Assembly (NCBI RefSeq): GCF_018446385.1
Contig: NC_056003.1
Span: 21,201,198 to 21,265,197, forward strand
Direction: 5' to 3'
DNA length: 64,000 bases
From: Zingiber officinale
Lineage: Eukaryota > Streptophyta > Magnoliopsida > Zingiberales > Zingiberaceae
In this document: one piece after another, positions 2,670 to 51,547 of the stretch
Layout: each line of letters starts with the position of its first letter
Position numbering within the stretch: the stretch's first letter is position 1
The notes under the pieces: model-generated
Database searches by the model: none
What the model saw: only the letters and a program-made list of their open reading frames with translations
What the model was told of the DNA's origin: nothing
Translations under genes and position numbers: made by a program

Positions 2670-2917
2670 CATTGCACTGAGCTGATCCTCAATAGTGACT
2701 ATAGTTACATTTAGGGAAACAAAAACGTTCTATAAGTTGTTGCAAGGCATGTATCTACTTTCTGGATTACTACCTTCCTCGATAATCTTTCATGTATGTT
2801 AAATGCTTTCGACTCGGTTCAAGAAGGTGCAGATGTTTTTATTATCGATATAGAACTCTAAGCAGTTTGGTAATTGTGAACCATGTTAAATGCCTTTTCA
2901 TGGTATTTATGTATTAT
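2670..2917 (+). other. WOX 3' flank, probable 3' UTR
   Basis: Follows the WOX stop codon and runs to the point where the HSK-bearing duplicated segment begins. No reading frame of note. It probably contains the 3' UTR and polyadenylation region, but I see no decisive signal. Confidence 0.4.
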
Positions 2918-3380
2918 ATGTATTTTTATTTCCGTTGCATTCTTTACTCTAGAGGTGGCAAAACAGGCTTAACCGGCTAAGGTTTTCTAGTATAGGGAAA
3001 ATGAAACTTAACGGACCCTTTTAACAAACTAGCAATGGGAATCGATGGCTAACAAACATTTAACGATCAGATCTAATAGTCTTTGATGATCCATGAACAA
3101 TCAAAACTACTAGCGATGATGACAATTGATGATGATCTAATGTTTGGTGGAGATGAGTGATTAACGATAGCCTATCTCCTTGTCAAAACACAAGTGTGCT
3201 TCAAGAAAAGGGAAAGAGAAATAACAGAGCTTTTGCAGTTAAAACAAGTAACAAATAAATATAGTAGACATCATCACACAAGAAGGCTTGAAGGAAAAAG
3301 TTATTTCATCGCCAGATAAACTACAATTCAAAACACTAAATCAAAGTGATAATATGCTAGTAGGAAAATGACAATCTCAC

Positions 3381-3517
3381 CAGGCTTGCAATACCCTGTT
3401 ACAACTGCAGCTGATCTTTGCTGGTAAGAATCAAAGGATTGACACTTCTTTATTGCTTGGAACTCATATCCTGTGTGCTCAAACCTCCCTGTTAAGCAGA
3501 GGCCAACCCTGAACATT
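3381..3517 (-). other. Copy 1 of the putative HSK 3' UTR exon
   Basis: Counterpart of 19403-19539, flanked by the same acceptor (TTTTGCAG) and donor (CCTG then GTGAGA) on the - strand. In both copies it contains an open frame of about 46 codons with two or three residue differences. It is probably a non-coding 3' UTR exon of HSK; a separate coding exon cannot be excluded. Confidence 0.4.
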
Positions 3518-4046
3518 CTGCAAAAGGAACATGGAATTTCGCAGGCTAGGGGTGATTTTTAAAATGGGCTGTAGCATCTAATGATTTTGTCAATGATCTT
3601 TAAAGTTTTTTATTTTATCCCATAACAAAGTGAGTAGTTTAGATGATAATTCAGAAAGATAAATGTTAGTCTTGAAAAGGAGGGATTTTGAGGTGTTTTG
3701 ACATTAATGAAACTTACTGAACTAGAATTGGATTGGATTTATATTCATCCAGTCTATATGATTAGCAAAGATGATGTACAGGAAAGCATGCCTATGGAAA
3801 ATTTGTTATGTTCAAATAACACTTCAAGTTTATGGATGAGAGAAGTGAAGAGGAAAGTTACCTGTTTGTTTTAGGCTGATTCTGTTCCAAAGACCCTTGC
3901 CCCAACTCTATCAAGCTTGGCCACAGTTGCAATGGATTGGAGATTACCCTCCTTGGTGAAAGCCTCCACCATCCTCGACGCGATCTTGTTTCCTTTCTCC
4001 TCCTCGTCGATGATCGCTACAGCAGTCGGCCCAGAGTCGCTGATGG

Positions 4047-4404
4047 TGTAGTATGTTTGAGAGCATGAAATAGAAATGAAATAAATTATAATCACTCACA
4101 GTGATCTCCCGAAGAAATCGCAGAAGAAGACACCGGTCGACAAAGACGCTGCCGCTGTCGGAAGCACAATCACGGGTAATCGGAAAATCCTTCAGAATTC
4201 ACGAGCCAAATCCCAGATGTTCTGCTTTGCTTCTCTGATCACCACCAGAGTTTCTGCTACTTTCTCTCATGGCTTGGACGCACCTTTTATAAGAAGGTTA
4301 AGGAAGACGAAGGGGAAAAGATGCTTCTTCGTCTCCTTGACGTTATGCAGCAAGGAGGGAGATGAAGGGGAAACGATGCCCCTTCATTTCCTCAACGTCT
4401 AACA
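4047..4404 (-). repeat. 3' LTR of the copia element
   Basis: 358 bp, TGTAGTATG...TCTAACA. It pairs with 10671-11028. The polypurine-like stretch lies just inside it (reverse complement of 4405-4420). Confidence 0.95.
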
Positions 4405-4889: not shown

Positions 4890-7684
4890 AGCAATCTTCA
4901 GATGCTTTAGGAACCTTCTTAGCTAGACATCCTCTTGCACAACCGTTGCACAAGTCACATACTCGGCTTCCATTGTCGACAAGGCTACACAAGCTTGCTT
5001 CTTGCTGTTCCATGAGATGACACCACCATTCAGCAAGAAGACATAGCCAGATGTGGATTTTCTGTCATCAAGGTCCCCTGCCTAATCTGCATCTATGTAG
5101 CCACTTAGCCTCATTTCTGATCCTTGGAAATAGAGGCAATAATCCGTTGTTCCTTTGATATATCTGAATATCCTCTTCACTGCTTTCTAGTGTCTCGATC
5201 CTGTGTTTGACTGGAAACAACTAACTAAGCCAACAACATAGCTTATATCAGGACGACTACACAACATAGTGTACATCAAACTACCAATAGCACTGCATAT
5301 GAGTTTTTCTTCATTTCAGCTATTTCCTCAAGAGTCTTGGGATACATACTTTTGCTCAAGACAATACATCTCGCTATAGGTGTCTGTTCAATGTTGCAAT
5401 CTAACATGTTGAAGTGTTGTAGCATCTTAGTGATATAAACTTCTTGAGACAAACTCAAAAGCTTTTTTGATCAGTCTCTAATGATCTTCACTCCTAAGAT
5501 GTACTCTTCTTCTCCCATATCTATTATGTCAAATTGCGATGAAAGCCAATTTTTGATTTCTATCACATTTTATGTCGCTTCCCGCTATTAGCATATCATC
5601 AACATAAAATGACAAACTTTCCTTTTTTCCTTTCTTAGATAAACACAATGATCCTCATTGATCATTTCGAAACCATAAGAGAAAATGACTTTATTAAATC
5701 TTATGTTCCATTGTCTTGATGCTTGCTTTAGCTCATATATAGACTTCCTAAGTCTACATACTCTTTTCTCTTGGCCTTCAACAATATAACATTCTGGTTG
5801 TACCATATAAATTTCTTCGTCAAGATTACCATTAAGGAAAGCTGTTTTTACATCCATCTGATGTAATACCATGTCATATTGTGCTACTATAGCTAGGATA
5901 ACACGTATTGACACAAACTTCACAACTAAGGAGAATGTCTCTTCAAAGTCAATACCCTCCATTTGAGTATATCCTTTTGCAACTAATCGAGTTTTGTATC
6001 GATTAATCGATCCATCTGCTTTCCTCTTTACTTTGAGAATCCACTTATTCCCAATAGCCCTTCGGCCCAGAGGAAGATCGACTAAATCCCAAACTTGATT
6101 CTTTCTTATTGACTCCATTTCCTTATCCATTGTAATTTTTCATTTTTCTCTTACTAAGCTTCTCAAAGCTTCCTCAACTGTTTGAGGTTCCTCATCATCA
6201 ACTGAGAGAATCATCAATGCCTCATTCTCAATATCAAACCTTCTCTGAGAAATAATCTGACGACTACTTCTTCGAAGGTTAGACTATTGAGAAAATGACT
6301 TATTCAGTGACAAATTACTCCCACTAGGTTGACTAGACTCAGACATCTTCTGATTTGTTGATAAAGGAACATTATCCTCTTCCTCTATCTCATATAGAGA
6401 AATTGTCTTATCAACTTCACCTCGTGTTGGGAACTCAGTTTCAAGAAAAGTAGCATCTCTTGACTCTATTTCAGAGATAGTTCCATCTTGTCGCTCACCA
6501 ATAAAAACATAACCCTTAGAAGTCTCAGAATACCTTATAAAGATACACTTCTTACCTCTGGGCCCTAATTTTTCATGTTCGTGAGTTTTATCATGAACGT
6601 AGGCAGCTGACCCCCAAGGTCTCAGATTACTTAAATTCGGCTTTCTGCCTATCTAACGTTAATGTGAGGTAGATGAAACTGACTTTGAAAACACTTTGTT
6701 AAGTATATAAGCCGCAACTAATAATGCATCTCCCCAATAGGAGATTGGCAAATTAGACTGTGCCATCATAGACCTAACTATTTCAAGAAGAGTCCACTTT
6801 CTTCTTTCAGCAACCCCATTTTACTGTGGAGTTCCAGGGATAGTTAGCTGTCAAATAATCTCTTTCTCATTACATATTGTCTTGAACTGATCAGACAAAT
6901 ATTCACCTCCACAGTCAGTGCGCAAGGTTTTAACCTTACGTTCCAATTGATTCTCAACTTCGTTCAAGTAATGAATAAAGTAATCTAATGTTTCAGATTT
7001 GTGAGAAATCAAATACACATGACCAAAACGTGTGAAGTCATCAATAAATGTAATAAAATAAGAACTCCCATTTCTAGCCTTCATATTCATTGGACCACAA
7101 ATATCTGAATGAATTAATTGTAATGGTGACTCAACCCTAATAGCTTTACCAAATTATTTTCTAGTCGTCTTTCCAGCAAGACAATGCTCACATATAGACA
7201 AGTTAATCTTAGCATGAGTGCCCAAAAGGTCCTCCTTAGCTAATCTATTCATTCGTTCTTGTCCTATATGTCCTAGCCTAGCATGCCAAATTTCATCATT
7301 AACATTAGCATTACTAGTAAGAGCAATGTTTGAAAAACAACCATCATTATTATTTGGTTCTACATCAAGAACCATAAAACTATTTGTTACATAACCATAC
7401 CCAATTAACACAGAGTTAATTCGAAGTTCCACACAACGGCTATAAAAATTTACATCATAACCTAAATCAAGAAGACACATGACGGAAACCAGATTCCGTC
7501 GAATCTCAGGAGCATACAGGACATTATGTAGAAATAAGGTACGCCCACCACGTAAGTTGAGCTTGCAAGTGTCAATTCCTTTGACTTCAATTTTTGCATT
7601 GTTTCCTATATATATCCATTTGTTGCCAGTTGGTACCTGACGGTACTCCACATATGTAGCTCGATCACGTGCTACGTGGTTCAT
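4890..7684 (-). mobile_element. Copia pol region: protease end, integrase, RT, RNase H (fossil)
   Basis: Around 7684-7154 are the protease tail and the GAG-pre-integrase histidine-rich region (HARLGH). The integrase core follows near 7090-6851 (FITFIDDFTRFGHVYLI). Reverse transcriptase is at about 6130-5588 (MDVKTAFLNGNLDEEIYM), and RNase H traces at about 5460-4890 show [14 protein letters not shown]-like sequence. Order and motifs are those of Ty1-copia. The region is broken in several places. Confidence 0.9.
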
Positions 7685-7720
7685 TGCCTGAATCTACAAT
7701 CCACAAAGGATACGAATCAG

Positions 7721-8611
7721 CTAACAACACTGTACTTGTAACATATTGCTCGTGGAAAGAAGATAAAAAGGATCTACCTTTTTAGGCTCAGTACAATCCC
7801 GAGCAACATGACCCTCCTTGCTATAGTTAAAGCAAGTCAACTTGCTCATAGGTCTTTGTCCATATCTCTTTCCTTTCTTCTTGATTTGGTTTTTAACAGC
7901 AACAACACTAGCCTTCTTTCCTTTTCCCTTTCCTTTCTTAAACCATCTTTTCTTATTCTTGGAACCAGAACCTTCAGCTACAAAAGTTTGACTAGAAATC
8001 CTTGCGGATTCAATCCTCTCCGCCTCAAGTTCAACATGACGTGAGAAATCGGTGAAAGTCTTGATAGTCTCACTGTGGGTCAGATTCTGTTTCATTGTTT
8101 CCCAAGAATCAGGAAGGGAACGGATGACTGTTTGAACCTGTTGTTCATCGATCAATGCATGACCAGCAGTCTTAAGCTCTCGAATCATGTTACTCATCTC
8201 CCTGAGATGTTGGGTCATGGTAACATTCGAGCATTTTTTACAGCTATCAAACTTAATTGTTATCTGACGGATCTTACTGAGACTAACTCTATTGTACTTC
8301 TCTCTAAGGGCTGCCCAGACAACACGAGTCGATGGTAATAGCTCATACTCAAATACCAAGTCATCCACCATTGAACTAATCAATATTCCCTTAGCAATGG
8401 AGTCCTTCCTTTTCCATGTCTTATAGGCATCAAGGTCACATATGTGCTGTGCTGTAGAACCATCAGCTGGTTCTTCCATGATTTGATTTGCAACCTCTAG
8501 AACTTCTTGTTCCTCAAGAACGTATTGTATCTTGAGGTGCCAGATTTTGTAGTTATCCCCATATAATTTCTCACCCTTATTGAGTTTAGCTATGATATTT
8601 TTAGTTGTCAT
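7721..8611 (-). mobile_element. Copia gag-like region with CCHC zinc knuckle
   Basis: A frame of about 296 codons with the UBN2-type copia gag fold (WHLKIQYVLEEQEVL near the N-terminus), then a lysine-rich stretch and a zinc knuckle of the form CFNYSKEGHVARDC. It follows the long leader of the element and precedes the pol region on the - strand. Confidence 0.9.
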
Positions 8612-10670
8612 GATTTACATAAATAAACACATTATTTATTATTTCAGTGTAATTCATATATGTGCAATTATTTATTGACTCAGTGTAAATTAGAGTTAGT
8701 TTACAAAATCAAGTGATAACATTGTTTTCACTCATTATTTGTATGCTCTAATCTAATCAACATTGATCAGTCATATTACACACATCTCATCTAATGAACG
8801 AATCATTATTAAAATGAATTAATCATTTTTCATATGAACTAATCATATGGATATATGAACTAATCATATTCATATGAACTAATCATGAGCAAGTTAGTTA
8901 ACACATAACATAACTATTTATTTATCATAACTCTGTTCGTACATAACGACAGAAATTATTACATGACTCAAACATTAAATGAGCTAACACTGTTCGTAAA
9001 TAACGACAGTAAACAGAACACTAATAAACAAGGTAGGCCAACATCGCTCCCATTAGAACAAATATTAGTGCAGCGACCAACATTATCCCTATTAACCTGG
9101 ACTCATTTGGGATAATCTCAGATGGAGCAACTTCAGGATTCTTCATCAGATCCATTTCTAGATCTTCCTCGAACATTTCCTAGTCCTCTTCAGACTCTTC
9201 AGGCTCTTCTTCACCCATATAGTACCTCACACAGTTTTGAAAATGTGGCGTGCCCTTCATGACGTCCTCATACATAGTCTGCAATATATTACCCTAGGAT
9301 ACTCTGGCAATGAATGCATCAATACCCAGATCCTATAACTATCCAGGACTGGAAACTCCTCTTGCTCAAGTTTCCAGAATAGTCTATCAAGCCTTCTAAC
9401 ATGTTCATTGACTCCATAAACAGACTTATACTCTATCTCCTGAATCTCCTCTCGGAGCTAGTTTCGCCGCACTTCGCGACGAGTTAATGTGGTAATCGTC
9501 CGAGCCATCTGAAAAATTGTATTTAAACAAGTCAGTATAAAGATGACTAACTAATACAAAACCAGTTTAATTCAATTTATACAGATATAGAACCATCATT
9601 ATAAATTAAGAAAAATAAATCTTTTTAATTTTCAGGAGTTTAAGTCGACTGACCGATTGGACCGATCGATCAGGAGTCCGGTTCTTAAGCTTAGTCTATT
9701 GTCCTCATTAGAACAATCTAATTAGACAGAGATTTCTGACCTATGTTATGTTATTGTTTAAGCTCATTTGAGTCAATCTCAGACTTATTGATCAAAATTA
9801 GGTTCGTTTGATTCGTCCAATGCCCATTGGATTAAGTCTGACCTATTATAGTAAATCTAATCTTTTTGATCAAATCTGACACAACAGAACTAATCTGGTC
9901 ATATTTGATCAACCCAACTTCTGTAATCAAGATCATCCTAATTAATTTAATAATAAACCGAAATGGTTAAACCAACAAATAATTTGAACCAGATCTAGCT
10001 ATCATTGAATCAAACTGGTCTACTTAAATCAACTAATAATTTAAACCAGACCTAGGTTTGATTGGACAAGTTGGTCTGGTTTAATTTTCAGTAAATTGAA
10101 CCATAAATTAATTAAATATTTATTTATTAATTAATAATACATTTCTATATGCATTTAATTAATTAATAAATATATTTAATTAAAATATAAATATGCACTG
10201 TTTATACACGTGAAGAAAAAAAATATGCATGCACTATTTTCTACATGTTTTTCTTTTTTTTTCTTCACTGTGCTTCGTCAAAACGAAGTACTATTCACCT
10301 TTTTTCTCTCTTCAATCAATTCATGAATCGATTGAAGAACTGTGCGCGATTTTGAATAGATTGAAATGAAATTTCAAATCGATTCAATTGAATTAATCTG
10401 ATGGATGAACATTGCTCACTGTTCATCTTCTTTGCGACAGGAAAAAAACGTGAGCTTCTCTCACACCGATTTTCACCGGTACTAAAACACGGGTGCAGAC
10501 ACTCCTCTGCCGCCACTCTATGCCGCTGAGGACTACGCGATTCCAGGTGAAAATCACATAAATGGGATCTGGCAGATCCCAAAAATCGCAACTTCGCGAT
10601 TTCTCCATGAGCGATCGTGATTTCTCAGCCACAGGGATTTACATGCTTTCAAAATTTGCTCTGATACCAT

Positions 10671-11028
10671 TGTAGTATGTTTGAGAGCATGAAACCGAAA
10701 CGAAATAAATTATAATCATTTACAGTGATCTCCCGAAGAAATCGTAGAAGAAGACGTCGGTCGACGAAGACGCTGCTGCTGTCGGAAGCACAATCATGGG
10801 TAACCGGAAAGTCCTTCAGAATTCACGAGCCAATTCCCAGATGTTCTGCTTTGCTTTTTTGATCACCACAAGAGTTTCTGCTGCTTTCTCTCATGGCTTG
10901 GATGCACCTTTTATAAGAAGGTTAAGGAAGACGAAGGGGAAAAGACGCCCCTTCATCTCCTTGACGTCATGCAGCAAGGAGGGAGATGAAGGGGAAACGA
11001 CGCCCCTTCGTTTCCTCAACATCTAACA
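10671..11028 (-). repeat. 5' LTR of the copia element
   Basis: 358 bp, TGTAGTATG...TCTAACA, the partner of 4047-4404. The primer-binding site adjoins its inner end at about 10658-10670. The right flank gatggtgcaacc resumes the HSK pseudogene. Confidence 0.95.
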
Positions 11029-12021
11029 GATGGTGCAACCAAAGACACCTGCCTCCATTGCTGCCTTCTTCACACTCACCATCCTCGAAATTAGGGGAGC
11101 TCTCCTCGGCTCGACGATTACATCCGCTGCCATTGCAGATCCGAGAACCCTCACATTGCCTTACACCACGGCAGCCGCCAAGGTTGCGGCTTGACTCGAG
11201 TTCTGGATATGGTCCTTCATTGGGATGTTTGCTGGCAATGCTTCCCTCATCTTCTTGGTAGGCGCCTCGAACTCGCAGCTCACTAGCCCGAAGAAGATAT
11301 CTCAGCCATGTGGGAATTCCAGCTAGATGATCTCAAATGGGTCGTAGCTCCGGATCAAGACGAAGCCTTCCAAGATCGAAGGCCCCACATTGTCAACGCG
11401 GTAGCCACTTACCTTCTTCTCCGACTCGAGCCCGGCAAGAACGAGTTCGTCAGGGGTCAGGTAGCCGCCGAAGAGTTTGCTGACCGCGAGCGCCGCGACA
11501 GCGATAGAAGCAGCGCTGGAGCCGAGGCTGCTACCGACCGGGAGGCCCTTGTGAAGAGGCAGGGAGAGGCTGACGGAGCAGACACCGAGCATGCACATCA
11601 CGGCTATACCAGCTATGCCAGCACAGTTCCATAGCAGGTCACGCCGGAGCTTGGAGGTAGAAGAGGATCCAGAGATCTCGGCGATCGAGAGAGTACCTAG
11701 CGTGACTGCGGGGTCGACGGAGATGGTGACGGTGTCGCCGAGGCCACCACCGACAGCGCAACCGAGGAAGTCGAAACCGAGGTCGAGGTTGGCTACGGTG
11801 GCGGGAGCGAAGGCCGTGAGAGGGCAGAACGTTGAGGAGGGGTCGGTGAGGTTGGAGGCTATGGAGGTAGTCAAAATCGGGGCTTTAGCACCGACGGAGC
11901 ACCGGAGGCGGGAGAAGTGGGAGAACGGGCGGGTCCGGTTAAGTGGAGTCCTGGTCAGAGGGAAGGTCCTGGTGGGAGCGGCTACCGTCGCCATTAGTGG
12001 TCGAGGGCGAGAGTGGGAGAG

Positions 12022-12193
12022 CAGGCCGGATCCTCAAGACCGCTTTTGCGGTCCAGAGAATGCTCTCTTTGCATGTATTGGTGGGGATGCATAGTCCCAA
12101 CTTGTAAAATAGGTGGGGATCATACATTCCCACCAATGCATGAAAAGGGAGCATCTTCTGGACCGTAAAAAGAATATGAGCTACCAATTAAAT
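12022..12193. mobile_element. Small non-autonomous DNA transposon (MULE/MITE-like) in the HSK pseudogene leader
   Basis: A 172 bp insertion absent from the intact copy, flanked by a direct repeat AGTGGGAGAG at 12012-12021 and 12194-12203. It contains a long imperfect inverted repeat: GGTCCAGAGAATGCTC near 12050 pairs with GAGCATCTTCTGGACC near 12152, extending through GCATGTATTGGTGGG. A 9-10 bp target duplication suggests a Mutator-type element. The inverted repeat does not reach the outermost bases, so the exact family is open. Confidence 0.7.
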
Positions 12194-12283
12194 AGTGGGA
12201 GAGGATGGTGGCAGGTTAGGATTGATCGACGGGTTATGAGCTCGCAATTTGGCTAGTGAGTCAGATTGCACATAGGTATTGAG

Positions 12284-12980
12284 CAATTATCCCAATGCTA
12301 CTTTTAATATTGGAAAATTACAAAACCCTCCTCTGAGTCTTGCTATTCAACAACTTTGTCCAATTTTATTAAATAGCATGAGAGATCTAAAGGGAACGAA
12401 TCAAAAATGTACTCAATATTACTAGGATGGTAAATGAGCCAATTTGAGCCCAAAGTCATGGTATTCAAATTTATTTGATAAGACAATTGAATCAAAGTTA
12501 AGTCGAATATAAAGAATTGATCGTTAAAGTTTGACTTTAATCGGTCCGAAAATTGAATCAGACGGAGAGCTAGAATAATATGGTGAAAATATTGATCGAA
12601 TCACTATGGCTCGAAGGAAGGTATGCTGAGTTGTCCATATATGTTGACCAAGTCGTCAGAAGTCTTCTAGTCAATGTCACCTACAGCTAGCGACCGGGTT
12701 ACCCCGATCTCTGGTACCCCGATGCTCGAGGCAAATCCAACGAATATATAATCAATTAAATAATAATAATAGAATAATGAAATAAATATACAGTGAATAC
12801 GGTAACGTACCCTGGCCCAAAGGGCATCCTCTGGTGGATCGGTGAGCTGATCGAAACGCTGCTCAAATTGTCATGACCTAGAAGAGTAGATGACTCTGAG
12901 CTGGATTAAGACATGGATCTGACAACACCTAGTCGAACGTGACTTGGATCTAGAAGACGATATGCAGACCGGGACCTAAC
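12284..12980. other. Intergenic DNA, no gene seen
   Basis: Moderately AT-rich, with no convincing reading frame or repeat structure that I can recognise. It begins where similarity between the two HSK copies ends. Confidence 0.4.
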
Positions 12981-18911: not shown

Positions 18912-19402
18912 ATTCTTATCTTTTCATGGTATTTATGTATTATACGTGTTTTTATTTCCGTTGCATTTCTTACTCTAGAGTTGGCAAAACAGGTTTAACC
19001 AGCTGAGGTTTTCTAGTAGAGCGAAAATGAAACTTAATGGTCCTTTTAACAAACTAGCAATGGGAATCAATGGCTAACAAATATTTAACAATCAGACCTA
19101 ATAGTCGATGATGATCCATGAACAATCAAAACTACAAACGATGATGACAATTGATGATGATTTAATGTTTGGTGGAGATGAGTGATTAACGATAGCCTAT
19201 CTCCTTGTCAAAACACAAGTGTGCTTCAAGAAAAGGGAAAGAGAAATAACAGAGCTTGCAGTTAAAACAAGTACAAATAGATACAGTAGACATCATCACA
19301 CAAGAAGGCTTGAAGCAAAAAGTTATTTCACCGCCAGATAAACTACAATTCAAAACACTAAATCAAAGTGATAATATGCTAGTAGGAAAATGACAATCTC
19401 AC

Positions 19403-19539
19403 CAGGCTTGTAATACCCTGTTACAACTGCAGCTGATCTTTGCTGGTAAGAATCAAAGGATTGACACTTCTTTATTGCTTGGAACTCATCTCCCGTGTGC
19501 TCAAACCTCCCCGTTAAGCAGAGGCCAACCCTGAACATT
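19403..19539 (-). other. Putative 3' UTR exon of HSK
   Basis: Nine bases after the HSK stop codon the - strand reads AACAG then GTAACT, a strong donor (intron from 19843 down). A pyrimidine-rich acceptor TTTTGCAG ends at 19540, and a second donor (CCTG then GTGAGA) begins at 19402. A further acceptor with a long pyrimidine tract could start an exon at 19223. The 137-base exon contains an open frame with no recognised domain. If the second junction is used, it lies 146 bases after the stop, which in plants can trigger nonsense-mediated decay. Confidence 0.5.
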
Positions 19540-19852
19540 CTGCAAAAGGAACATGGAATTTCGCAGGCTAGGGGTGATTTTTAAAATGGGCTGTAACATC
19601 TAATGATTTTGTCAATGATCTTTAAAGTTTTTTATTTTATCCCATAACAAAGTGAGTAGTTTAGATGATAATTCAGAAAGATAAAATAATGAAACTTACT
19701 GAACTAGAATTGGATTGGATTTACATTCATCCATTCTATATGATTAGCAGAGATGATGTACAGAAAAGCATGCCAATGGAAAATTTGATATGTTGAAATA
19801 ACACTTCAAGTTTATGGATGAGAGAAGTGAAGAGGAAAGTTACCTGTTTGTT

Positions 19853-20980
19853 TTAGGCTGCTTCTGTTCCAATGACCCTTGCCCCAACTCTATCAAGCTT
19901 GGCCACAGTTGCAATGGATTGGAGATTACCCTCCTTGGCGAAAGCCTCCACCATCCTCGACGCGATCTCATTTCCTTTCTCCTCCTCATCGATGACTGCT
20001 ACAGCAGTCGGCCCGGAGCCACTGATGGTGCAACCAAAGGCACCTGCCTCCATTGCTGCCTTCTTCACACTCACCATCCCCGGAATTAGGGGAGCTCTCC
20101 TCGGCTCAACGATTGCATCCGCTGCCATTGCAGATCCGAGAACCCTCACATTGCCTTGCACCACAGCAGCCACCAAGGCTGCGGCTTGACTCGAGTTCCG
20201 GATATGGTCCTTCATTGGGATGTTTGCCGGCAATGCTTCCCTCATCTTCTTGGTGGGCGCCTCGAACTCGGGGCTCACCAGCACGAAAAAGAGATCCCGG
20301 TCATGTGGGAATTCCAGCTGGATGATCTCAAACGGGTCGTAGCTCCGGATCAAGACGAAGCCTCCCAAGATCGAAGGCCCCACATTGTCAGCGTGGTAGC
20401 CACTTACCTTCTTCTCCGACTCGAGCCCGGCGAGAACGAGTTCGTCAGGGGTCAGGCGGCCGCCGAAGAGTTCGCTGACGGCGAGCGCCGCGGCGGCGGC
20501 GGAAGCAGCGCTGGAGCCGAGGCCGCTACCGAGCGGGAGGCCCTTGTGAAGAGACAGGGAGAGGCCGACGGAGCGGACGCCGAGCATGCGCATCGCGGCT
20601 ATACCGGCTATGCCGGCGCAGTTCCATAGCGGGTCACGCCGGAGCTTGGAGGCAGAAGAGGATCCAGAGATCTCGGCGATCGAGAGAGTACCTGGCGCGA
20701 CTGCGGGGTCGACGGAGACGGTGACGGTGTCGCCGAGGCCACCACCGACGGCGCAACCGAGGAAGTCGAAACCGGGGCCGAGGTTGGCTACGGTGGCGGG
20801 AGCGAAGGCCGTGAGAGATCGGAACGCTGGGGAGGGGTCGGTGAGGTTGGAGGCGGTCAAAATCGGGGCTTTAGCACCGGCGTAGCACCGGAGGCGGGAG
20901 AAGTGGGAGAACGGGCGGGTCCGGTTAAGTGGAGTCCTGGTCGGAGGGAAGGTCCTGGTGGGAGTGGCTGCCGTCGCCAT
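19853..20980 (-). CDS. HSK: Homoserine kinase, chloroplast (EC 2.7.1.39)
   Basis: Phosphorylates homoserine with ATP to give O-phosphohomoserine, the branch-point substrate for threonine and methionine synthesis in plastids. It has 375 residues in one exon, like the intronless Arabidopsis gene (about 370). Residues 1 to about 45 are rich in Ser, Thr, Arg and Pro with few acids, as in a plastid transit peptide. GHMP-kinase motifs are complete: PATVANLGPGFD at 61-72, the ATP loop GLPLGSGLGSSAAS at 147-160, and GCTISGSGPT at 316-325. The coding region is GC-rich, which also opens long antisense frames. It is transcribed divergently from CTU1, start codons 333 bp apart. A broken second copy lies at 3871-11994. 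Signs of 3' UTR introns follow the stop. Identification is firm; activity is inferred from intact motifs. Confidence 0.97.
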   Translation of the reverse strand: MATAATPTRTFPPTRTPLNRTRPFSHFSRLRCYAGAKAPILTASNLTDPSPAFRSLTAFAPATVANLGPGFDFLGCAVGGGLGDTVTVSVDPAVAPGTLSIAEISGSSSASKLRRDPLWNCAGIAGIAAMRMLGVRSVGLSLSLHKGLPLGSGLGSSAASAAAAALAVSELFGGRLTPDELVLAGLESEKKVSGYHADNVGPSILGGFVLIRSYDPFEIIQLEFPHDRDLFFVLVSPEFEAPTKKMREALPANIPMKDHIRNSSQAAALVAAVVQGNVRVLGSAMAADAIVEPRRAPLIPGMVSVKKAAMEAGAFGCTISGSGPTAVAVIDEEEKGNEIASRMVEAFAKEGNLQSIATVAKLDRVGARVIGTEAA

Positions 20981-21313
20981 TAGTGGTCGAGGGCGGGAGT
21001 GGGAGAGGATGGTGGCAGGTTAGGGTTGATCGACGGGTTATGCGCTCGCAATTTGGCTAGTGAGTCAGATTGCACGTAGGAATTGTGCCACTAATCAAAC
21101 CTGATATATTATAGCGTGGCCCAAAAATCTTTCGGCACATTTTTAGGTTACGGCCCATAAGCATCAGCATGGTGTTGCCCATCAATACGACGACGTCTCT
21201 CGTCCGCGGCGGAGGCACAACGGCGATCGATACGGCATCCTGTTCGCAGGTTTAGGTGTTGATCTCCCCTCCGCCCAGTCCTCTACCGCAATTTGCGGCA
21301 GGGGTCAGTCTAC
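20981..21313. promoter_or_regulatory. Shared divergent promoter of HSK and CTU1
   Basis: The whole space between the two start codons is 333 bp. Two GGCCCA motifs (site II / TCP-type, common in promoters of housekeeping genes) occur at 21118-21123 and 21152-21157, with a TATA-like stretch (tgatatattata) near 21101-21112. The HSK duplication ends at about 21083, so copy 1 lacks all three. Shared use by both genes is an inference from layout. Confidence 0.6.
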
Positions 21314-24300
21314 ATGGGGGATTCTGACGCCAGCTCCAGGTCGAAGAGAGCAGCCGCGCGTCTCTGCTCCATCTGCAACCAAAGGCAGGCTGCCCTTAAA
21401 CGACCTAAAACTCTGCAGCAGGTACTACTCTTTCCGCTCTCTTTCCTAGGAGGGATTGTTTATGCGTCGGAATTGGAATTCTATTGGATAGGGTGAATGT
21501 TATGGTTGTGATTCACTTTTTTTTGTTCATCTGTTGCAGATTTTTTTAGATAGGACTAGTAAACTTGTAAAGATAATTATTATCGTTAACTTTCGTTAAC
21601 CATGAATTGTTGATCATCTTAAAAATGCAAACTTGCGTAACTTAGTTTGTTAAAAGGGGAGAAGTGATTGACATGGCTTCTACAATGCCTGATTCCTTAA
21701 TGCCAAATCATTATCACTGGACCAACTTTATGGAGCACTGAAACTTAGAAAAAAAATATGAATGTGAATTCATGTTTTCATATGGTTTCAAAGAAGCTGT
21801 TAGCTTTAACAAGCCCGGATCATCTCTTAAACTTGACTCCATAAACACCTAGTGAAGATATGGCAAACAGAAAAGTAGCCCCATGTTCCTATCTGACAAT
21901 ATCATACCATAATCAAAAGGTACAACTGCTCAAGTTTCCAGGCTTAACATATATTTAACCTTTGGATCCATTCTAAAATGTGAGAAATTAGCACTAGTTG
22001 GTGGAGTTGGTACATTTAGAATCAAGTTCAAACCAGCCGGTACACATTTGTTGTCAGGTATCTACACAATTTTAATAATGTAGTTCATGAGGTATCTGTA
22101 CAATTTAATATTGTATTTATAGTGGTAGCTCCACAATACTCAATAACTTTTTTGGAAGATATTTATGAGCACAAAACAAATCCTACTCAATGTGGGATGC
22201 AAGCTACACTAGATGCACTAATCATCCATATTTCCTGATGATCTTGATGTTTTTTCTATGCAATTAAATATATCCTTAAATGTGGAATATGCTAATATTG
22301 TTGATGGCATTGTTGGCGATTGTAGCATAGATGTCGTACTGGACAATTTCTCTTATTGTGAAAAGAAAGGAATCTGTAGCTAACCAATAGCCTTAGATTT
22401 AGATTAAGATTAAGATGAAATTACTATTGTGGATTTTGGATTCCAAATTTCTGTGAAAGGACCTTCACTGATTTGCATTCTGAGGTGGGTTCAAATTAAA
22501 GCTTCAATGACATGATGGGGATGATCTAGAAATTGGGAAATACTTCTTCCTTTGAGGCCTATATTTCGAACACAAACTAATTGCAATTTCCTAGTAGCAA
22601 GTTTGAATGTTACATATGTAAAATGGCATACACTCGTAGAATATTTCATTTTGTTTTTTGTAGATTTGTAAGGAATGCTTCTACATTGTTTTTGAAGACG
22701 AGATACATAAAGTTATTATGGATAACAACCTATTTAGACGTGGTGAGCGTGTTGCAGTTGCAGCTTCTGGAGGAAAAGGTGAATGACAAGTTCTTACAAG
22801 TATCAAATGCCGAGTCATATTTATTCTTTTCCCCTTTAACAAAAAATGTGTTTGTATATACAAGGTGAAGCTTCTCTATTAACACAGTGCTTCTATAGGA
22901 GTTTACTGGAAACTTTTACTGTCATGTTCCAAGATTAAATAATTTCAGTTCCCAGCTAATTAGAATTACCTCAGTTCAAAGATGGATCTTTTTTCTAATT
23001 TTCTCTCACACAAACGACAAATTTCTTCTATGCAGATTCAACTGTTCTTGCATATGTTATGTCACAGTTGAATCGCCGACACAACTATGGATTAGATCTC
23101 TTCCTTTTATCTGTTGATGAAGGCATTACAGGTTACAGAGATGATTCACTTGAAACAGTTAAAAGAAATGAAATTGAGGTATTAACTTTAGTTAAACTGC
23201 TACTTTCTAAGGCTATGGTATAATTACCATGTTATGAATTCTTCTTTTATTAATTGAATTTTGTTACTTCTTGATTTTTTTTTTTGTGGTGGTTCTGTTA
23301 TAATCTAGGTTATTATCATTTCATATTACATTTTTTTATTTATTTTGCAGTGCATAAGTTATTTGTAACTGTGAGATACTATTGATTTAATAATGGTTGT
23401 CAAAGTTGGCCGCCTTATATGGATACAGATTGCCCCAGCTGGATAGGTACATGCATAAATAGTTCCAATTTTTCTCATAAAATTGAACATCTCAATAAGA
23501 TTGTGGAGAAGTTTGAAAAACTAGACTTTCTAAAACTAGCTAGAAATGAGCTATATTTTTTTAGAAAATTGATCAAATCAATTGAAATTTTTTCAACTAG
23601 AGAGTGTAAGTGGATTGAATTTTTTAAAACTGGGCTGATGTTAGAAATTCAATTGACCTAGTCCCATTGAAACCTAGCGAAGTCACACAAGGACCAAAAA
23701 TTTTTGTGTTACTCGCTTGAATTGCTTAGCTATGAGTCTTATCTAGATCATTTATTCACTCATTCAACCTTGCCGCTATCGTGGTTGTCAAACTCAGCCA
23801 ATTGTGATACAGATTGGCCAAGTTGTATCGTAAGTGATAAGAGCTGATCCAATTCTGGCTGATGACTCAGAAGTGTGTTAGGGGTTTGCTGAGACACTAT
23901 AGATGCAATGGGAATTGATATACATCTCATTTTAACTGATCAAATCAAGAAAAATGGAGAGGGATCAGTGATTTTCTCAAAATTGATTGATTTCTGCTGA
24001 ATTATTATTCTGGACCAACCAGAAAGAAGGCATGGAAGAAAAGCAAATGCACTGGAAGAATGAAGCTCTTCCATTGGTTGCAAATGCCACTGCTAAGATA
24101 TCCACATCGCATCTCATGCTAGAGCCACCTGAGGGAGTGTCCAACTGACATGATGTCACGAGTTCACTTTCATGAGGAAGAGAAAATTGGGCTATGGGAT
24201 AGTTGGAAGCAAAGGACAAGATTGAGCTTTATGGCTTTGAGAGAAGAGAACGAGGAATGTGAATCCAAGCTCACAAGAGGATGGCTTCATTCATGAGCAC

Positions 24301-27300
24301 TAGCATAATAAGCTAATAATTAATATTATTATTAATTGGTAATGCTATAATAGTAACTTAATTATATTCTAAGTGTTAATTATATATTGTTACTCATTAG
24401 CAATAGTATTAGGTTTTTGATAGGTAAGATAAATTATAGTAAAATTGAGATAATAACAAATTATAAATTAATGTTATCAGGATATGTACGATGCTGCCTA
24501 GTTTTTATATTACCATGCCATGTGTAAGCATAGTTTTGGAATAAAGGATAATATGCATTATTCAACTGGTTGTATCTTTGCTCTGCCATGCCACGTGTAG
24601 GCATAGTTCTGGAATAAAGGATAATATGCATTATTCAACTGCTTGTGTCTTTGCTCTTCCCTCATGGTACCACAAGAAATGTAGCCTTGAAACACCTATA
24701 TTTTAGAGAATTAACTGCCATTGACTCTTTTTCTCCAAAGAGAATATCTGCATCTGATGTATCATGAACTAAATTTACTGTCTCAAAGGCTGGTAAAATC
24801 TACTGTTTTAACCCTATTAGTTCTGCAATTATACTACTTTAGTTATTGCATGTTTTTAGCTGACCCCACCTAGTGAGATAAGACTGGATTGTTGTTGTAG
24901 TTATTGCTTGTTTTTGAGATTTAATGATTTATAATCACATTTTCTTGAAGTTAACCCATCTTTGTATATCATTTAAATTATTAGCGTTACAAATCTGCTG
25001 CAGTATGGATTGCCCCTGAAGGTGGTTTCTTACAAAGATCTGTATGGTTGGACAATGGATGAGATAGTGAAGGCAATAGGCTTAAAAAACAACTGTACTT
25101 TTTGTGGAGTATTTCGTCGTCAGGTATCATAAGTTACTTGGTAGATTGTGCACTAGAGGAATTTTCTTTTTTTGGCTATTTGGTTGCCCAGCTTTTTAAG
25201 TTGCAAATATCATTTTATAGATTTTTTTTTAAAATTCTGAAAAGATCTGGTCCTAAAAGCTCTTCTCAAATTTAATGGCTGATATATAAATTAATTTTAG
25301 AATATTAAAAAAAAAAGAAGCTTTGCTAACTAAATCCTGTTTGCTCTTCTCAAATTTAATGGCTGATATATAAATTAATTTTAGAATATTAAAAAAAAAG
25401 TTCTGCTAACTAAATCCTGTTTTTGTTCTTTGTTCCCATTCTTTTGATCCTTGGTATGTGTTTGTAAAGTGAAGAACAGAATGACGTGTGGATCTAGAAA
25501 TCACTTGAGCGTATCACTAAATTAATTAATTAAATAAGTTACATTCGATACTACATTTTAACAAAAGAAAATTGATAGCCTGTATTACCATTATTATAAT
25601 TAAAAGGGGGATTAAAGTTGAGATTTTATTGTAGCCATCTTGGTTATCTTCCACTTGCCAAGTGCCTACCATTATCCGGTGTTTACTTGAAGGGGTAAAA
25701 ATATGGGAGGAAGGAGATAGATTATGTGAGAAGAGATAAAAAAAAAAGTATTACATTACTTGTTTGCTTGAACAAAATCAAAAGAAAGATAGTAATGCGA
25801 CTTATGTTGTGTCTATTAGAAACTCAAACCTCAAACTTCCTTTCTCCCTCTACATAATTGTGTGGAAAATAAATGGAGAAATTAGATGGAATTTCCATTA
25901 TTTTTCTCTTCCTTTAACAAATTCATTTCTTTATTTATTTTTTATCCCATTTCTGTCCAATTAAACATACCATTAGTATGAGTACGGTTACTTCCACGTG
26001 TATTTGCATTTCTCCTTTGAATGTTAATTTTTTATTCCTTACATCTACAGACCGCTCTCTTTAATGCTTCATTTTTATTCCATATATGAAGAGCCAATCT
26101 TGTGATAATGGACAGTAGGATGCCATGTTACTTGTAGGCTCTAGATCGAGGTGCTGCATTAATGAAAGCAGATAAAATTGTTACTGGCCATAATGCAGAT
26201 GATATTGCTGAGACTGTTCTATTGAATATTTTGCGGGGTGATATTGCTAGGTAATGTACTCTCCACATTTCACTTACTGCTACAATTCCTCTTAATAGTA
26301 AATAATAATCACAATCATGGACTTCTCTTAGGTTGAGTAGGTGTACAATCATTACTACAGGGGAAGATGGCCCTATTCCGAGATGCAAGCCCTTCAAATA
26401 CACTTATGAGAAAGAAATTGTTATATATCCTTGGCAATGAAATTCTTTTATGCAGTCTTTGTATGTTTATTGAGCTAATTTGTCAATTTTTAAAACTGTC
26501 AGACCTTAACCAAGTTTCACGTATGCATACTTCAAGAAGCTGGATTATTTCTCCACCGAATGTAATCTATCATGCCCTTCCCTTATTTATACTTTTTGTC
26601 CGCTGTGATTTGGCATGCACATTTAGAATAAATGGTGATTAGGGGAACTTATGTAGTAGCTTATCAAGTACAGCCAAATTATTAAATGGAAATATTATGC
26701 ATATGAAAATGGGTCATGGCTGTTATTTTATTTGCGCTAGCACTACAAACCAGATTTGGTGCATGACTCAGGACATGCTGGTACCTGAATGACCATATAT
26801 TGTTGGAATGCAGCTAATATAAATGATCTCCTTTTCTTTTGACTAATATATTGATTTGATTTGTAGATTTACCGTTTCCCAGAAATTTGTTCTGTGCAGT
26901 GGCTTTCTGAATTTTTTTTTGTCATATGTTTTGCACACACCAGACTTAACGCAGAGCACTTTTATTTTGTCTCGTCAATTCTTAGTGCTGATAATGAATG
27001 TGCAGGCATTTACTCACCTAATGCATATCGTGGGTTTGCTCGTGAATTTATCAAGGACTTGGAAAGAATAAGGTAAATTCTTTGCCTATGTCTATAAATC
27101 AAAAGCCAAATTAAATAGTCGTATGCACATAAATAAATTTAGGTTTCTTAGTAGAGATTATGCAACTAATCTTCTCTTTCTCCTGCAGGCCTAGAGCTAT
27201 ACTTGACATTATTAGATCAGGTGAGAATTTTCGAATTGCAACATCCACCAAGTTGCCAGAGCAAGGAACCTGCGAACGTTGTGGTTATATTTCTAGCCAA

Positions 27301-28263
27301 GTACTAAAACCACACCTTTTCATTGCTCAGAAGTTTTTTGGTTTATAGCTATTCCTTTCACCTCTCTTAATTACTTTTTCTGCCGGACCACCAAATAGGA
27401 ATTTGATTTGATTAATAGCATGATTGACAGGATTGCTAATGTTGAACTTCTCATTGCTGAATCTAATCTTACAGGGCAAGCACAGTAGTTTAAGATTTCC
27501 TGAAAGTTCATGATGTTCTTTTACCTAAAAGGCATTTAAGTTTGTAATTCTAAATTTGAAACCTATGAATTGGTGATATGCTGCATTGTCTTGTTCAATT
27601 TGAAGCTCTCAAGAAACCATCGTCATGGAAAACTCAATTCTTGCTGTTCAAGGAGCAGAGTCAATGGCTGAAGTCTGAAGTGGCATGCATTAGTTGAAGT
27701 TCCTTAATTTTATTGCATTTTGGTTTACATCCTTCTTTCATTTGTTGCTGATAGAATAAAGATAGAGATATTCATATATAAATATTTGATGGATGTGAAT
27801 ATTTTACCTACTACCGAATTAAGCGTTAGATTCCTGTCGTGATAACACTTCATCGCTAGATGGTGCTATCATATCATGGTCAGGATATTTATAACCTTAG
27901 AAACTGTATTCCTAATTATTGTTATTACGGATTATTATACATGTTTAGCCACATAGTTTTTAGTAAAATAAAAAGGGTTTGTTTTAAGCAGTATTTATGA
28001 CATGATCGCTTATGTTTATCATTTTTCCAGAAGATGTAAACTTGATATATTTTAATACTGACATTTTTTTTCAATTGGAATCACAGAAGCTGTGCAAAGC
28101 ATGTATGCTGCTTGAGGGATTGAATCGTGGTCTCCCAAAACTTGGTATCGGAAGAACAAGAGGCAACAATGATCTGAAGAAGCAACGGGAGCACGGAAAT
28201 TCTGTTCCAAAAATTACTGATTCCAACTTACAGAGCAAACAATGCGGGTCTCTTGACTTCTGA
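21314..28263 (+). CDS. CTU1: Cytoplasmic tRNA 2-thiolation protein 1 (CTU1/NCS6/ROL5); ten exons
   Basis: Cytosolic ATP-dependent enzyme that, with CTU2, thiolates the wobble uridine (mcm5s2U34) of Lys, Glu and Gln tRNAs using URM1-delivered sulfur. Exons: 21314-21421, 22664-22778, 23036-23178, 25004-25123, 26138-26250, 26332-26424, 26521-26561, 27006-27072, 27189-27300, 28087-28263. They total 1089 bases, 362 residues, with every junction in frame. N-terminal zinc cysteines are C18, C21, C38 and C41; the PP-loop SGGKDST is at 71-77; CTFC at 153-156 carries the catalytic-type cysteines; the C-terminal zinc pairs are C295/C298 and C307/C310. The protein ends QCGSLDF, close to the usual QCGTLDF. 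Nine introns include one apparent AT-AC U12 intron (separate entry). Start: an upstream in-frame ATG at 21293 would add seven residues; 21314 was preferred by family length. Confidence 0.97.
24511..24656. repeat. 73 bp tandem duplication in CTU1 intron 3
   Basis: Two copies of a unit containing GGAATAAAGGATAATATGC, starting near 24511 and 24584, with about six differences. It is probably a local slippage or transposon remnant inside the intron. Confidence 0.8.
25260..25422. repeat. 84 bp tandem duplication in CTU1 intron 4
   Basis: Two copies beginning CTCTTCTCAAATTTAATGGC at 25260 and 25344, nearly identical, differing around an A-run. It is likely recent. Confidence 0.9.
26425..26520 (+). 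other. U12-type AT-AC intron (CTU1 intron 6)
   Basis: The 96-base intron begins ATATCCTTGG (U12 donor consensus ATATCCTT) and ends TTTCAC, with a U12 branch site ACCTTAAC at 26503-26510 whose branch adenosine lies about 11 bases before the AC end. This splice rebuilds ATG for residue 231 and gives [19 protein letters not shown], the sequence expected for CTU1. No GT-AG pair nearby preserves it. The other eight introns fit GT-AG. Confidence 0.92.
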
Positions 28264-28988: not shown

Positions 28989-30682
28989 TGTTGGTGCAGT
29001 AGCCTAATTATGTCAACTAAGCTTGATTTGACTCAATTTTAAATCTTTATATTTAGATTTCGATGTTTAATAATACGTGGAGATGGTAAGTGTAATCATC
29101 CGATTGGGGAGATTACCTGTGTAATTCGCCTCTAGTCAGGGTTTGATCAGATTGATATGAAGAAGAGTCAAGTAGGTCAAAGGATTGACAAGATACTTGA
29201 TTGGGAAAGTCCTAATTGGAGGTTAGGCAGTTGAAAGTCTTGGTGAGTGAAGCCAGACAGTTGAAAAATCCTAGTGAGTGAAGTTAGGCAGATGGAAAAT
29301 CCTGGTGAGTGAAGTCAGGTGAAAGACCTAGACAGTTGAAAAATCCTGGTGAGTGAGGCCAAGTGAAAGTCCTGGTGAGTGAAGTCAGGCAGGTAGAAGT
29401 CTCGATGAGTGAAGCCAAGCAGGTAGAAGTCCCGGTGAGTGAAGCGGGGCAATGGAAAGACTTGGTGAGTGAAGCCAGGCACGTGGAAATCCAAGTGGGT
29501 CAAGGTTGACCGGACACCTGGTGTGGGAAGTCGAAGTAGGTCAAGGGTTGACTGGATACTTGGCACGTGAAAATCCAGGTTGGTTAAGGTTGACCGGACA
29601 CTTAGTGTGAGAAGTCCAAGTAGGTCAAAGGATTGACTGGATACTTGGCACAAGGAAATCCAGATGGGTCAAGTATGACCAGACATCTAGTGGAAGGAAG
29701 TCCAAATGATCAAGGTTGACCAGACATTTGGCACGAGAAGAAAAGTCCAAGTGGGTCAAAAAGATTGATGGAGCACTTGGTGAAAAAATTCTAGCAGATT
29801 AAGGTTGACCGGATGCTAGGCATAATGTTCCAACAGGTCACGGTTGACCGGATGTTGAATTGGAGACTTAGGACTTGAGTTTAGGCAAGTCAAAGGTGGG
29901 GCAATCGATCAACCGATCGATTGGAGGATGTGCGCCGCGACGAAAGGATGACCCAATTGATCCATTGATCAATTGGGAGCTTATATCGCACGCACAGAAG
30001 CGCTCCCAATCGATCAGCTGATCGATTGGGCGCCTCCAATCGATCGGTCAATCGATTGGGGACGGGATTTCTCGCACATGATCGTGAGAAAGCCTAAATC
30101 GATTGGTCGATCAATTCAGGTTATTTCCAAAGAGCACAGAGGCACTCTGAATTGATCGACCGATCGATTCAGAGCCTCCCCAATCGATTGAGAGTCATTC
30201 AATCGATTGGGATCCGACCGTTGCGCAAATTATAGCTGTTGGCGAGCGTCTTCTCCAGAAGTTCTTCGCCCGATTCTTCTCCAATCTTCACGGCGATCTT
30301 CTCCACTGCTCACGGCCAGTTCTTGGAAGCTCTTGGGGACAAGTGCTGGTGCACTTCCAAGGTTCAAGAGGCAACAACAAGTAACAAGTAAGCAAGAAGA
30401 GAGGATTTTCATTTGTATTCATTGTATTTTTCTTCTTGCGTGTGTTGTATTTGCTATGTGAGTGTTGTAAGGATTCTCCGCCTTCAATAGTTACCATAAA
30501 GGAGTATTTTCATAGTGAAGAGTGCTCGCGTGTATGGATCTATGGATTAGTCACCTTTTCTTGATGTGGATACCAAGTAAATCCTTGTGTTAGCATTGTA
30601 GAGTGTGTTTCTTGTTATTTATTCCGTTGCACATCATCGAAGAAGCACATTAACAAGCGCGACGAGCTATTCAACCCTAACA
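28989..30682 (+). repeat. Left LTR of the 28989-38926 element, with tandem repeats
   Basis: TGTTGGTGCAG...CCTAACA. It contains about 30 bp repeats of the type GGTGAGTGAAGCCAGGCAG (29220-29480), then longer GGTCAAGGTTGACCGGACAC repeats (29490-29830), and a cluster of CGATCGATTGG-type palindromes (29905-30205). The same order recurs in the right LTR. Confidence 0.9.
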
Positions 30683-44061: not shown

Positions 44062-46186
44062 ATGCAGGCATGGATAGATTCTCCCCGTGGTAGTCTGGAG
44101 TATCAGGTTGAAATTCGAAATTTTTTACCTTATGCATTTGCTAACACAACTAATGCAGTGACGAAACCATGTCCTTGTCGTAAATGCATCAACTCATTGA
44201 ATCATGACCGTGAGACAATATATGAACATTTGATGATAAACAGTATTTTACAAGATTATCATATTTAGAATTTCTACGAAGAAAAGTTGATTGTACAATC
44301 TCATGATACCATGAGAGATGAGCTTCATGCCTTACCATAAGTTTATGAGACAATTAACTATGAATCAATGGTCTAAGAAGCATTACATGAAGTATTTGGG
44401 ATATTTGAAGGATCGCCTATGAGGAATGAAAACTACACTGGTGCATTAACTAGTCATACATCGATGGAGTCTAATGTGAAAGATTTCTATAGATTGGTAG
44501 AAGAAGGAAAAAAACCATCATATGCTGGATGCACTAAGTTTTCTAAATTGACATTTCTTGTTGAGTTATTTCAATTGAAAGTGGGTGGAAAATGGAGTGA
44601 TAAGTCCTTCACAACATTATTGGATTTTCTTCGACGAGTACTTCCACCTGAAGCACAAGTACCAAATTCTTTTTATGAAGTGAAGAAACTAATTTCTAAT
44701 TTGGGACTTCACTATGAAAAACTACATGCTTGTCCAAATGATTGCATGATTTATTGGGGTGAGGATGCGAATGAACAAGCTTCTAGAGTATGTAATCTTT
44801 CAAGATGGAAAAACATGTAGAAACAACAAAAGAAGTCACGCAAAGGTGGAAAAAAAATCCTTCAGATGAAAACTCCAGCCAAGGTTTTTTGGTATTTTCC
44901 ATTAAAACTGAGATTACAACGATTATTTATGTTATCTCAGACGTCTGAAAATATGCAATGACATTCTAAGAAACGGGTTTCAGATGGAATTTTAAGGCAT
45001 CCGGCTGATTCGCCAGCATGGAAGGCATTTGAAGAGTGACACGCTGAATTTGGAGTAGATCTTAGAAATGTACGTTTTGGACTCGCTACTGATGGATTTA
45101 ATCCATTTTAAAATCAAAGTACGTCACACAGTACATGGCATGTTGTTCTAGTGCCTTACAATTTGCCACCTTGGGAATCTATGAAGCCTCATTCAATTAT
45201 TTTATCCACCTTAATTTCAGGACCCAAAGCACCTGGAAATGATATTGATGTATATTTACGTCCCTTGTTGGCTGAATTGAAGGACTTATGGGAAAATGGG
45301 ATTACCACTTATGATGCTTGCAACAAAGAAATGTTTCAAATGTGGGCTGTATTGCTTTGGACCATTAGTGATTTTCCAGGTTTGGAATGTTTGTCTGGGT
45401 GAACACATATGCCAAGAATGCTTGTCCAACATGTGCTGATAAGACAGATGCAATGTACTTGAATAATGGAAGAAAATGGTCATTTAAAGGGCATCGCCGC
45501 CTCTTATCGACAGATTCAAAAATACAAACTATGACAAGTTGTGGCAAGCCAGAGAAACGTGAATTAGATTTGATACCATTGTCTGTATCTGATGTTCTAC
45601 AAATGACCCAAAACCGAAATGTGGTATTTGGTAAGAGTACATATCGAAACCATTGGTGCAAGCAAAAACAGGTTCCACTGAACAAATGTGGAGGAAACAA
45701 AGTATTTTTTTTTCACTTTGCCTTATTGGGAGTTTAATTTGATAAGACATAATTTGGATCCTATGCATATTGGGAAAATGTTTGTGATAATATCCTTGGA
45801 ACACTTTTAGATGATTCTAGCAAGAGCAAAGATAACGCTATTGCACGTGGAGATTTGAAAATATTGGAAATTATGAAGTAATTATGGCCACAGCCACAAT
45901 CAAATCGTACAAAATATTTGCCACTAGCATGTTTGAACAAAGATGAAAAAAGTTGTTTTGTTCAGTGTTGAAAGATATTTGTGTCCCTAATGGTATGTCA
46001 TGTAATATTTCAAAATGTGTAGATGTTGGACGTTGTAAGATTTTTGGTCTAAAAAGTCATGATTGTCATGTGATAATGGAGCAATTTCTTCCAATAGCTC
46101 TTCGTCATGTGTTATCAAAAAAGGTAACTACACCATTAATTATTTTATATGAGTATTTCATAGCAGTGTGTGCAAAGTCACTATGA
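44062..46186 (+). pseudogene. TNP2-type CACTA transposase, degenerate
   Basis: Successive pieces match plant TNP2 transposases. 44062-44268 is a transposase-associated domain with CPCRKC. 44419-44820 has KPSYAGCTKFSKLTFLVEL and HACPNDCMIYW. 44860-45402 has a run including RNVRFGLATDGFNPF and HSTWHVVLVPYNLPPW. 45387-45737 has CPTCAD and KWSFKGHRRLL. 45953-46186 is DUF4218-like with LKSHDCHVIMEQFLPIALR. The frame is broken by stops after 44266 (TAG), near 44818, near 45110 and at 46184, and by frame changes near 45395. It cannot make a full transposase. Confidence 0.88.
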
Positions 46187-51486: not shown

Positions 51487-51547
51487 CTCTAGCTTGTGCT
51501 CCCTCGGGTGTTAATCCGGCGAAGAGCGACCTTGCTATGATACCACT

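Follow-up and report, generated by a model that had tools for sequence, protein, structure and literature searches.

The stretch analysed here, referred to below as the window, comprises 64,000 nucleotides (nt; 64 kb) of contig NC_056003.1 of Zingiber officinale and carries on its plus strand, from 21314 to 28263, an intact gene of ten exons whose spliced open reading frame (ORF) encodes 362 amino acids (aa) without interruption. Our analysis centres on the sixth intron of this gene, which starts with AT and ends with AC. The gene fits CTU1/NCS6 of the tRNA wobble-uridine thiolase family (ROL5 in Arabidopsis), because the deduced protein matches PF01171 and PF16503 and, among proteins of solved structure, is most similar to an archaeal U34 tRNA thiolase and TtuA. 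The match to PF01171 (PP-loop ATP-binding) extends over residues 66-249 (4.1e-15) and that to the zinc ribbon PF16503 over the C-terminal residues 293-323 (5.6e-18). The closest solved relative is the archaeal [4Fe-4S]-dependent U34 tRNA thiolase 6scy (E 6.4e-45), with TtuA proteins as further ones (E about 1e-32). The SGGKDS at residues 71-76 is invariant in an alignment of three sequences, and direct reading of the N-terminus revealed two CxxC pairs, C18xxC21 and C38xxC41, which we take to be zinc binders. Activity in tRNA thiolation is predicted from this homology, which is best to 6scy. No second CTU1 copy was found in the window, where the tblastn matches were confined to the exons of the gene at 21314-28263.

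Splice signals of the sixth intron

The intron 6 opens ATATCCTTGG and closes GACCTTAACCAAGTTTCAC. The published consensus of U12-type introns is ATATCCTT at the 5' splice site and TCCTTAAC at the branch site (PMC2831892). The 5' splice site of intron 6 agrees with this consensus at every position and the branch site at all but one (Table 1). There are two candidate branch adenosines, A26508 and A26509, the second of which lies 11 nt from the last base of the intron, and the reported optimum for the distance from branch to 3' splice site is 11-13 nt (PMC3584512). Joining exon 6 to exon 7 restores the codon AT|G for Met231 inside the peptide EKEIVMYAYFKK. The other eight of the nine CTU1 introns are of the GT-AG type and lack U12 motifs, with 2-6 mismatches to TATCCTT and 3-5 to TCCTTAAC.

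A preliminary description of the locus had placed the intron at 26425-26520, with a start in ATATCCTT, the branch sequence CCTTAAC, an AC end, and Met231 and its peptide rebuilt by splicing, and all of this was found to be correct by direct reading; the distance of about 11 bases that it gave between branch sequence and intron end corresponds to the 11 nt counted from A26509. It had also called AT-AC introns rare, which holds among all introns but not within the plant U12-type introns, where such termini are ordinary and account for 26% in Arabidopsis, 22% in rice, 13% in maize and 23% in soybean (PMC7367187 Table 2).

Table 1. Exons of CTU1 and signals of its sixth intron, in window coordinates
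Feature	Position	Strand	Remarks
CTU1 exon 1	21314..21421	+	ATG start codon at 21314; spliced ORF of 362 aa
CTU1 exon 2	22664..22778	+	residues 37-74; contains CKEC, SGGK
CTU1 exon 3	23036..23178	+	spliced ORF
CTU1 exon 4	25004..25123	+	spliced ORF
CTU1 exon 5	26138..26250	+	spliced ORF
CTU1 exon 6	26332..26424	+	93 nt; 3' end ...GAAATTGTTAT
CTU1 intron 6, AT-AC, predicted U12-type	26425..26520	+	96 nt, phase 2
U12-type 5' splice site ATATCCTT	26425..26432	+	8/8 of consensus, +1 to +8 (PMC2831892)
In-frame TGA on retention of intron 6	26438..26440	+	codon 236
U12-type branch site CCTTAAC	26504..26510	+	ACCTTAAC at 26503-26510, 7/8 of TCCTTAAC (PMC2831892)
AC 3' terminus of intron 6	26519..26520	+	direct reading
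CTU1 exon 7	26521..26561	+	41 nt; begins G|TATGCATAC
CTU1 exon 8	27006..27072	+	spliced ORF
CTU1 exon 9	27189..27300	+	up to residue 304; first part of zinc ribbon 293-323
CTU1 exon 10 and stop codon	28087..28263	+	spliced ORF

The exact signature, defined as ATATCCTT followed within 3 kb by CCTTAAC and shortly downstream by AC, occurs once on the two strands of the window, namely at intron 6. The ATATCCTT alone is common there, with six matches against 4.1 expected. Simulation of single strands by first-order Markov sequences, 100 of 64 kb each, gave a mean of 0.13 exact signatures, and in 1 of the 100 a signature was found whose donor and branch site lay under 150 nt apart. With 0.13 expected per strand, a single match over two strands is therefore unremarkable by itself. 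The joint chance of a U12 signature at a fixed junction that the protein requires is about 1e-9, a figure calculated for motifs that are the consensus of the class and were picked after the preliminary description had named them.

Protein fit and alternative splice pairs

Alternative pairs were examined for donors at 26340-26499 and acceptors up to 26559, with introns of about 60 nt or more and seven classes of termini. Pairs that kept the frame and left it open numbered 3 of 22 for GT-AG, 2 of 27 for GC-AG, 16 of 86 for AT-AC and 14 of 72 for AT-AG, besides 4 of 26 for GT-AC, 16 of 111 for AT-AA and 1 of 7 for GT-GG. Among all of these, AT-AC 26425/26520 was the only pair that kept the length of the protein. 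The in-frame products, 55 without the single GT-GG product, were scored against a profile built from the best 80, all of them archaeal, of at least 543 relatives that a scan of genome contigs with the three-sequence alignment as query had returned among at least 591 matched stretches. The product of AT-AC 26425/26520 ranked at the top with 298.3 bits, followed by that of AT-AG 26425/26514 with 291.5 bits, while the best GC-AG and GT-AG products obtained 288.3 and 273.5 bits, respectively. Residues 225-240 of CTU1 are free of gaps in all 80 relatives, although in one of them (L059) a single residue is inserted behind 236, and 65 of the 80 carry L, I, M, V or F at the position of residue 231.

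No eukaryotic ortholog was present among these best 80 relatives, which are archaeal only. The genome-contig scan with CTU1 alone gave 19 stretches and no relative, and a scan of viral contigs gave 24 pattern-matching stretches and likewise no relative. Since each of the 80 archaeal loci consists of one open frame, they are uninformative on the conservation of intron 6.

Taken on the splice signals, the reading frame, the protein profile and the absence of a workable GT-AG pair, which together support what the preliminary description had proposed, intron 6 is very probably a U12-type AT-AC intron of CTU1 and a predicted substrate of the minor spliceosome. Several observations weigh against this assignment. 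The lead of the AT-AC product in the profile over the runner-up AT-AG 26425/26514 is just 6.8 bits. In the 20 nt that precede the last 3 of the intron, the pyrimidine fraction is 0.55, which falls within the range of 0.40-0.85 of the GT-AG introns of CTU1, so that the lack of a polypyrimidine tract does not discriminate between the classes here. Moreover, the junction may be moved by 1-4 bases with the length of the protein kept, giving Ile231 when moved downstream and Thr231 when moved upstream, and at this position the 80 archaeal relatives have Ile in eight cases, Thr in four and Met in two. The exact junction is thus not fixed by the protein alone. Junctions slid in this way would be bounded by pairs like TA-CG or AT-GT, which do not belong to the customary spliceosomal classes, and it is therefore the splice signals that set the junction to the base.

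Among the alternatives, the use of a U2-type GT-AG or GC-AG intron, with the AT-AC signature being incidental, has few pairs to draw on, the five in-frame ones listed above, the best of which, GC-AG 26434/26514, adds five residues and still reaches 288.3 bits. None of the five preserves the protein length, however, and they alter the residue count just where 0 of the 80 relatives are gapped and one has a single insertion; the best GT-AG product lies 24.8 bits below that of the AT-AC pair, and the exact U12 signature would have to be a coincidence at about 1e-9. We consider this explanation highly improbable. Equally little credence is given to a U12-type intron that shares the donor 26425 and ends at the AG acceptor 26514, whether as main or as alternative splice: this AT-AG pair keeps the frame, adds two residues and is second in profile score, but its acceptor is situated just 5 nt beyond A26509, against the optimum of 11-13 nt, AT-AG combinations are disfavoured (PMC3584512), and the residues are inserted at 231-232, whereas insertions within 222-236 are found in 0 of the 80 relatives. 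Finally, the AT-AC intron might be excised by the major spliceosome, in which case there would be no link to the minor one. U2-type AT-AC introns do exist, at 0-0.05% of the U2-type introns in four plants (PMC7367187 Table 2); for intron 6, with the U12-type signals described above, we regard such a case as very remote.

Other U12-like donors and surroundings of CTU1

When the U12 rule was relaxed (no more than one mismatch in the branch site, GT-AG admitted, span up to 5 kb), the window yielded 26 rows from ten donors, three of the rows, including intron 6 itself, being derived from the donor 26425. A brief look at the open frames that precede the nine other donors, at the surrounding frames as well for five of these, and at the DNA itself for 43865-43739, demonstrated a splice site for none of them. 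The donors 5969+, 17014+, 22270+ and 7713- are not preceded by an open frame of 25 codons, and 22270+ falls within intron 1 of CTU1. The donors 34366+, 41321+, 45790+, 43865- and 32255- are preceded by open frames of 31-84 codons and are probably due to chance. An open frame at about 45680-45800 (+) ends LPYWEFNLIRHNLDPMHIGKMFVI directly before an ATATCCTT; by eye it resembles a piece of a CACTA transposase, and the adjoining ATATCCTT is therefore probably coding. A search of the window against Rfam returned no family at gathering score, hence no minor-spliceosome RNA.

The CTU1 gene is arranged head to head with a GHMP-kinase gene (PF00288, PF08544) at 19853-21019 on the minus strand, the coding starts being about 0.3 kb apart; this gene resembles homoserine kinase. 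The GHMP-kinase locus has copies in the window that are 92-95% identical, 18920-20030 corresponding to 2894-4048 and 20021-21088 to 11026-12284 (in two pieces), so that the duplicate is split in two, and the copy excludes CTU1. Within CTU1, tandem direct duplications of about 84 bp in intron 4 (25259-25422) and about 75 bp in intron 3 (24513-24660) are 92-93% identical. Just 3' of the gene, a tandem repeat array built of a 42/84-bp unit together with related units of 30-44 bp occupies 29228-29735. Long open frames at 5591-8614 (-) and 50023-51510 (-) resemble, by eye, pieces of retrotransposon gag/pol.

Predicted consequences and biological context

According to the assignment preferred here, intron 6 would be recognised by U11/U12, would pair with U6atac and would be removed by the minor spliceosome. 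If it was retained, translation is predicted to run into the in-frame TGA and to give a product of 235 aa with IYPWQ at residues 231-235 and without the zinc ribbon. The retaining transcript would probably be cleared by nonsense-mediated decay or would yield the protein lacking the zinc ribbon. Skipping of exon 7 would shift the frame, which skipping of exon 6 would not. Poor minor splicing may thus lead, through transcripts with a stop at codon 236, to lower thiolation of the tRNA wobble position. The dependence of wobble-uridine thiolation on the capacity of the minor spliceosome, suggested in the preliminary description, can reasonably be deduced from this predicted premature stop, though as no more than a hypothesis. 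A further-going proposal, in which the intron is ancient and conserved in the CTU1 of this lineage and serves as a rate-limiting valve, where a shortfall of the minor spliceosome causes retention, less CTU1 and slower decoding by thiolated tRNAs, appears unlikely at present; if it was true, a splicing defect would alter translation.

Introns of this class are recorded in U12DB, ERISdb and the intronIC database (PMC7367187), and a single minor intron among major ones is the typical arrangement (PMC3728624). The catalogued U12-type AT-AC introns have the same ATATCCTT donor, a branch site like TCCTTAAC, a short distance from branch to end and an AC end, and they likewise stand singly amid GT-AG introns. 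None of the signals tested differs from theirs; the one difference is the host, CTU1, for which no link with minor introns was seen in the literature searched: among the papers listed, the titles, abstract openings, term counts and excerpts covered name no such intron in CTU1, ROL5 or NCS6. The co-occurrence of "CTU1" and "minor spliceosome" in PMC10645366 proved accidental, the matching string being a PCR cycle value for U1. The intron 6 of CTU1 would accordingly be a further example of a known intron class, and a catalogue entry for it may already exist. A comparable case is plant CBP20, another multi-intron gene of RNA metabolism with a lone U12 intron, which is conserved across land plants (PMC5932401).

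DROL1 is an AT-AC splicing factor in Arabidopsis. In this plant, 165 genes with U12 introns have been reported, and knock-down of U11/U12-31K caused mis-splicing of most of the 30 U12 introns examined (PMC3422263); unspliced forms have been quantified in three minor-spliceosome mutants (PMC4892727). Orthologous function is expected for Arabidopsis ROL5/CTU1 (AT2G44270), which has CTU2 as partner in cytosolic tRNA thiolation and whose loss affects roots and immunity (PMC4014090, PMC10863982). Thiolation of plant tRNAs has been connected with root development (PMC4014090), heat tolerance in rice (PMC7595236) and, via ROL5, immunity (PMC10863982). The rice gene LOC_Os02g52470 goes by the name RCTU1 (PMC7595236).

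A gene finder that is restricted to GT-AG introns would mispredict CTU1. If intron 6 is spliced as predicted, CTU1 is to be counted among the few genes that depend on the minor spliceosome, and defects of this spliceosome would have wobble-uridine thiolation as a candidate target downstream.
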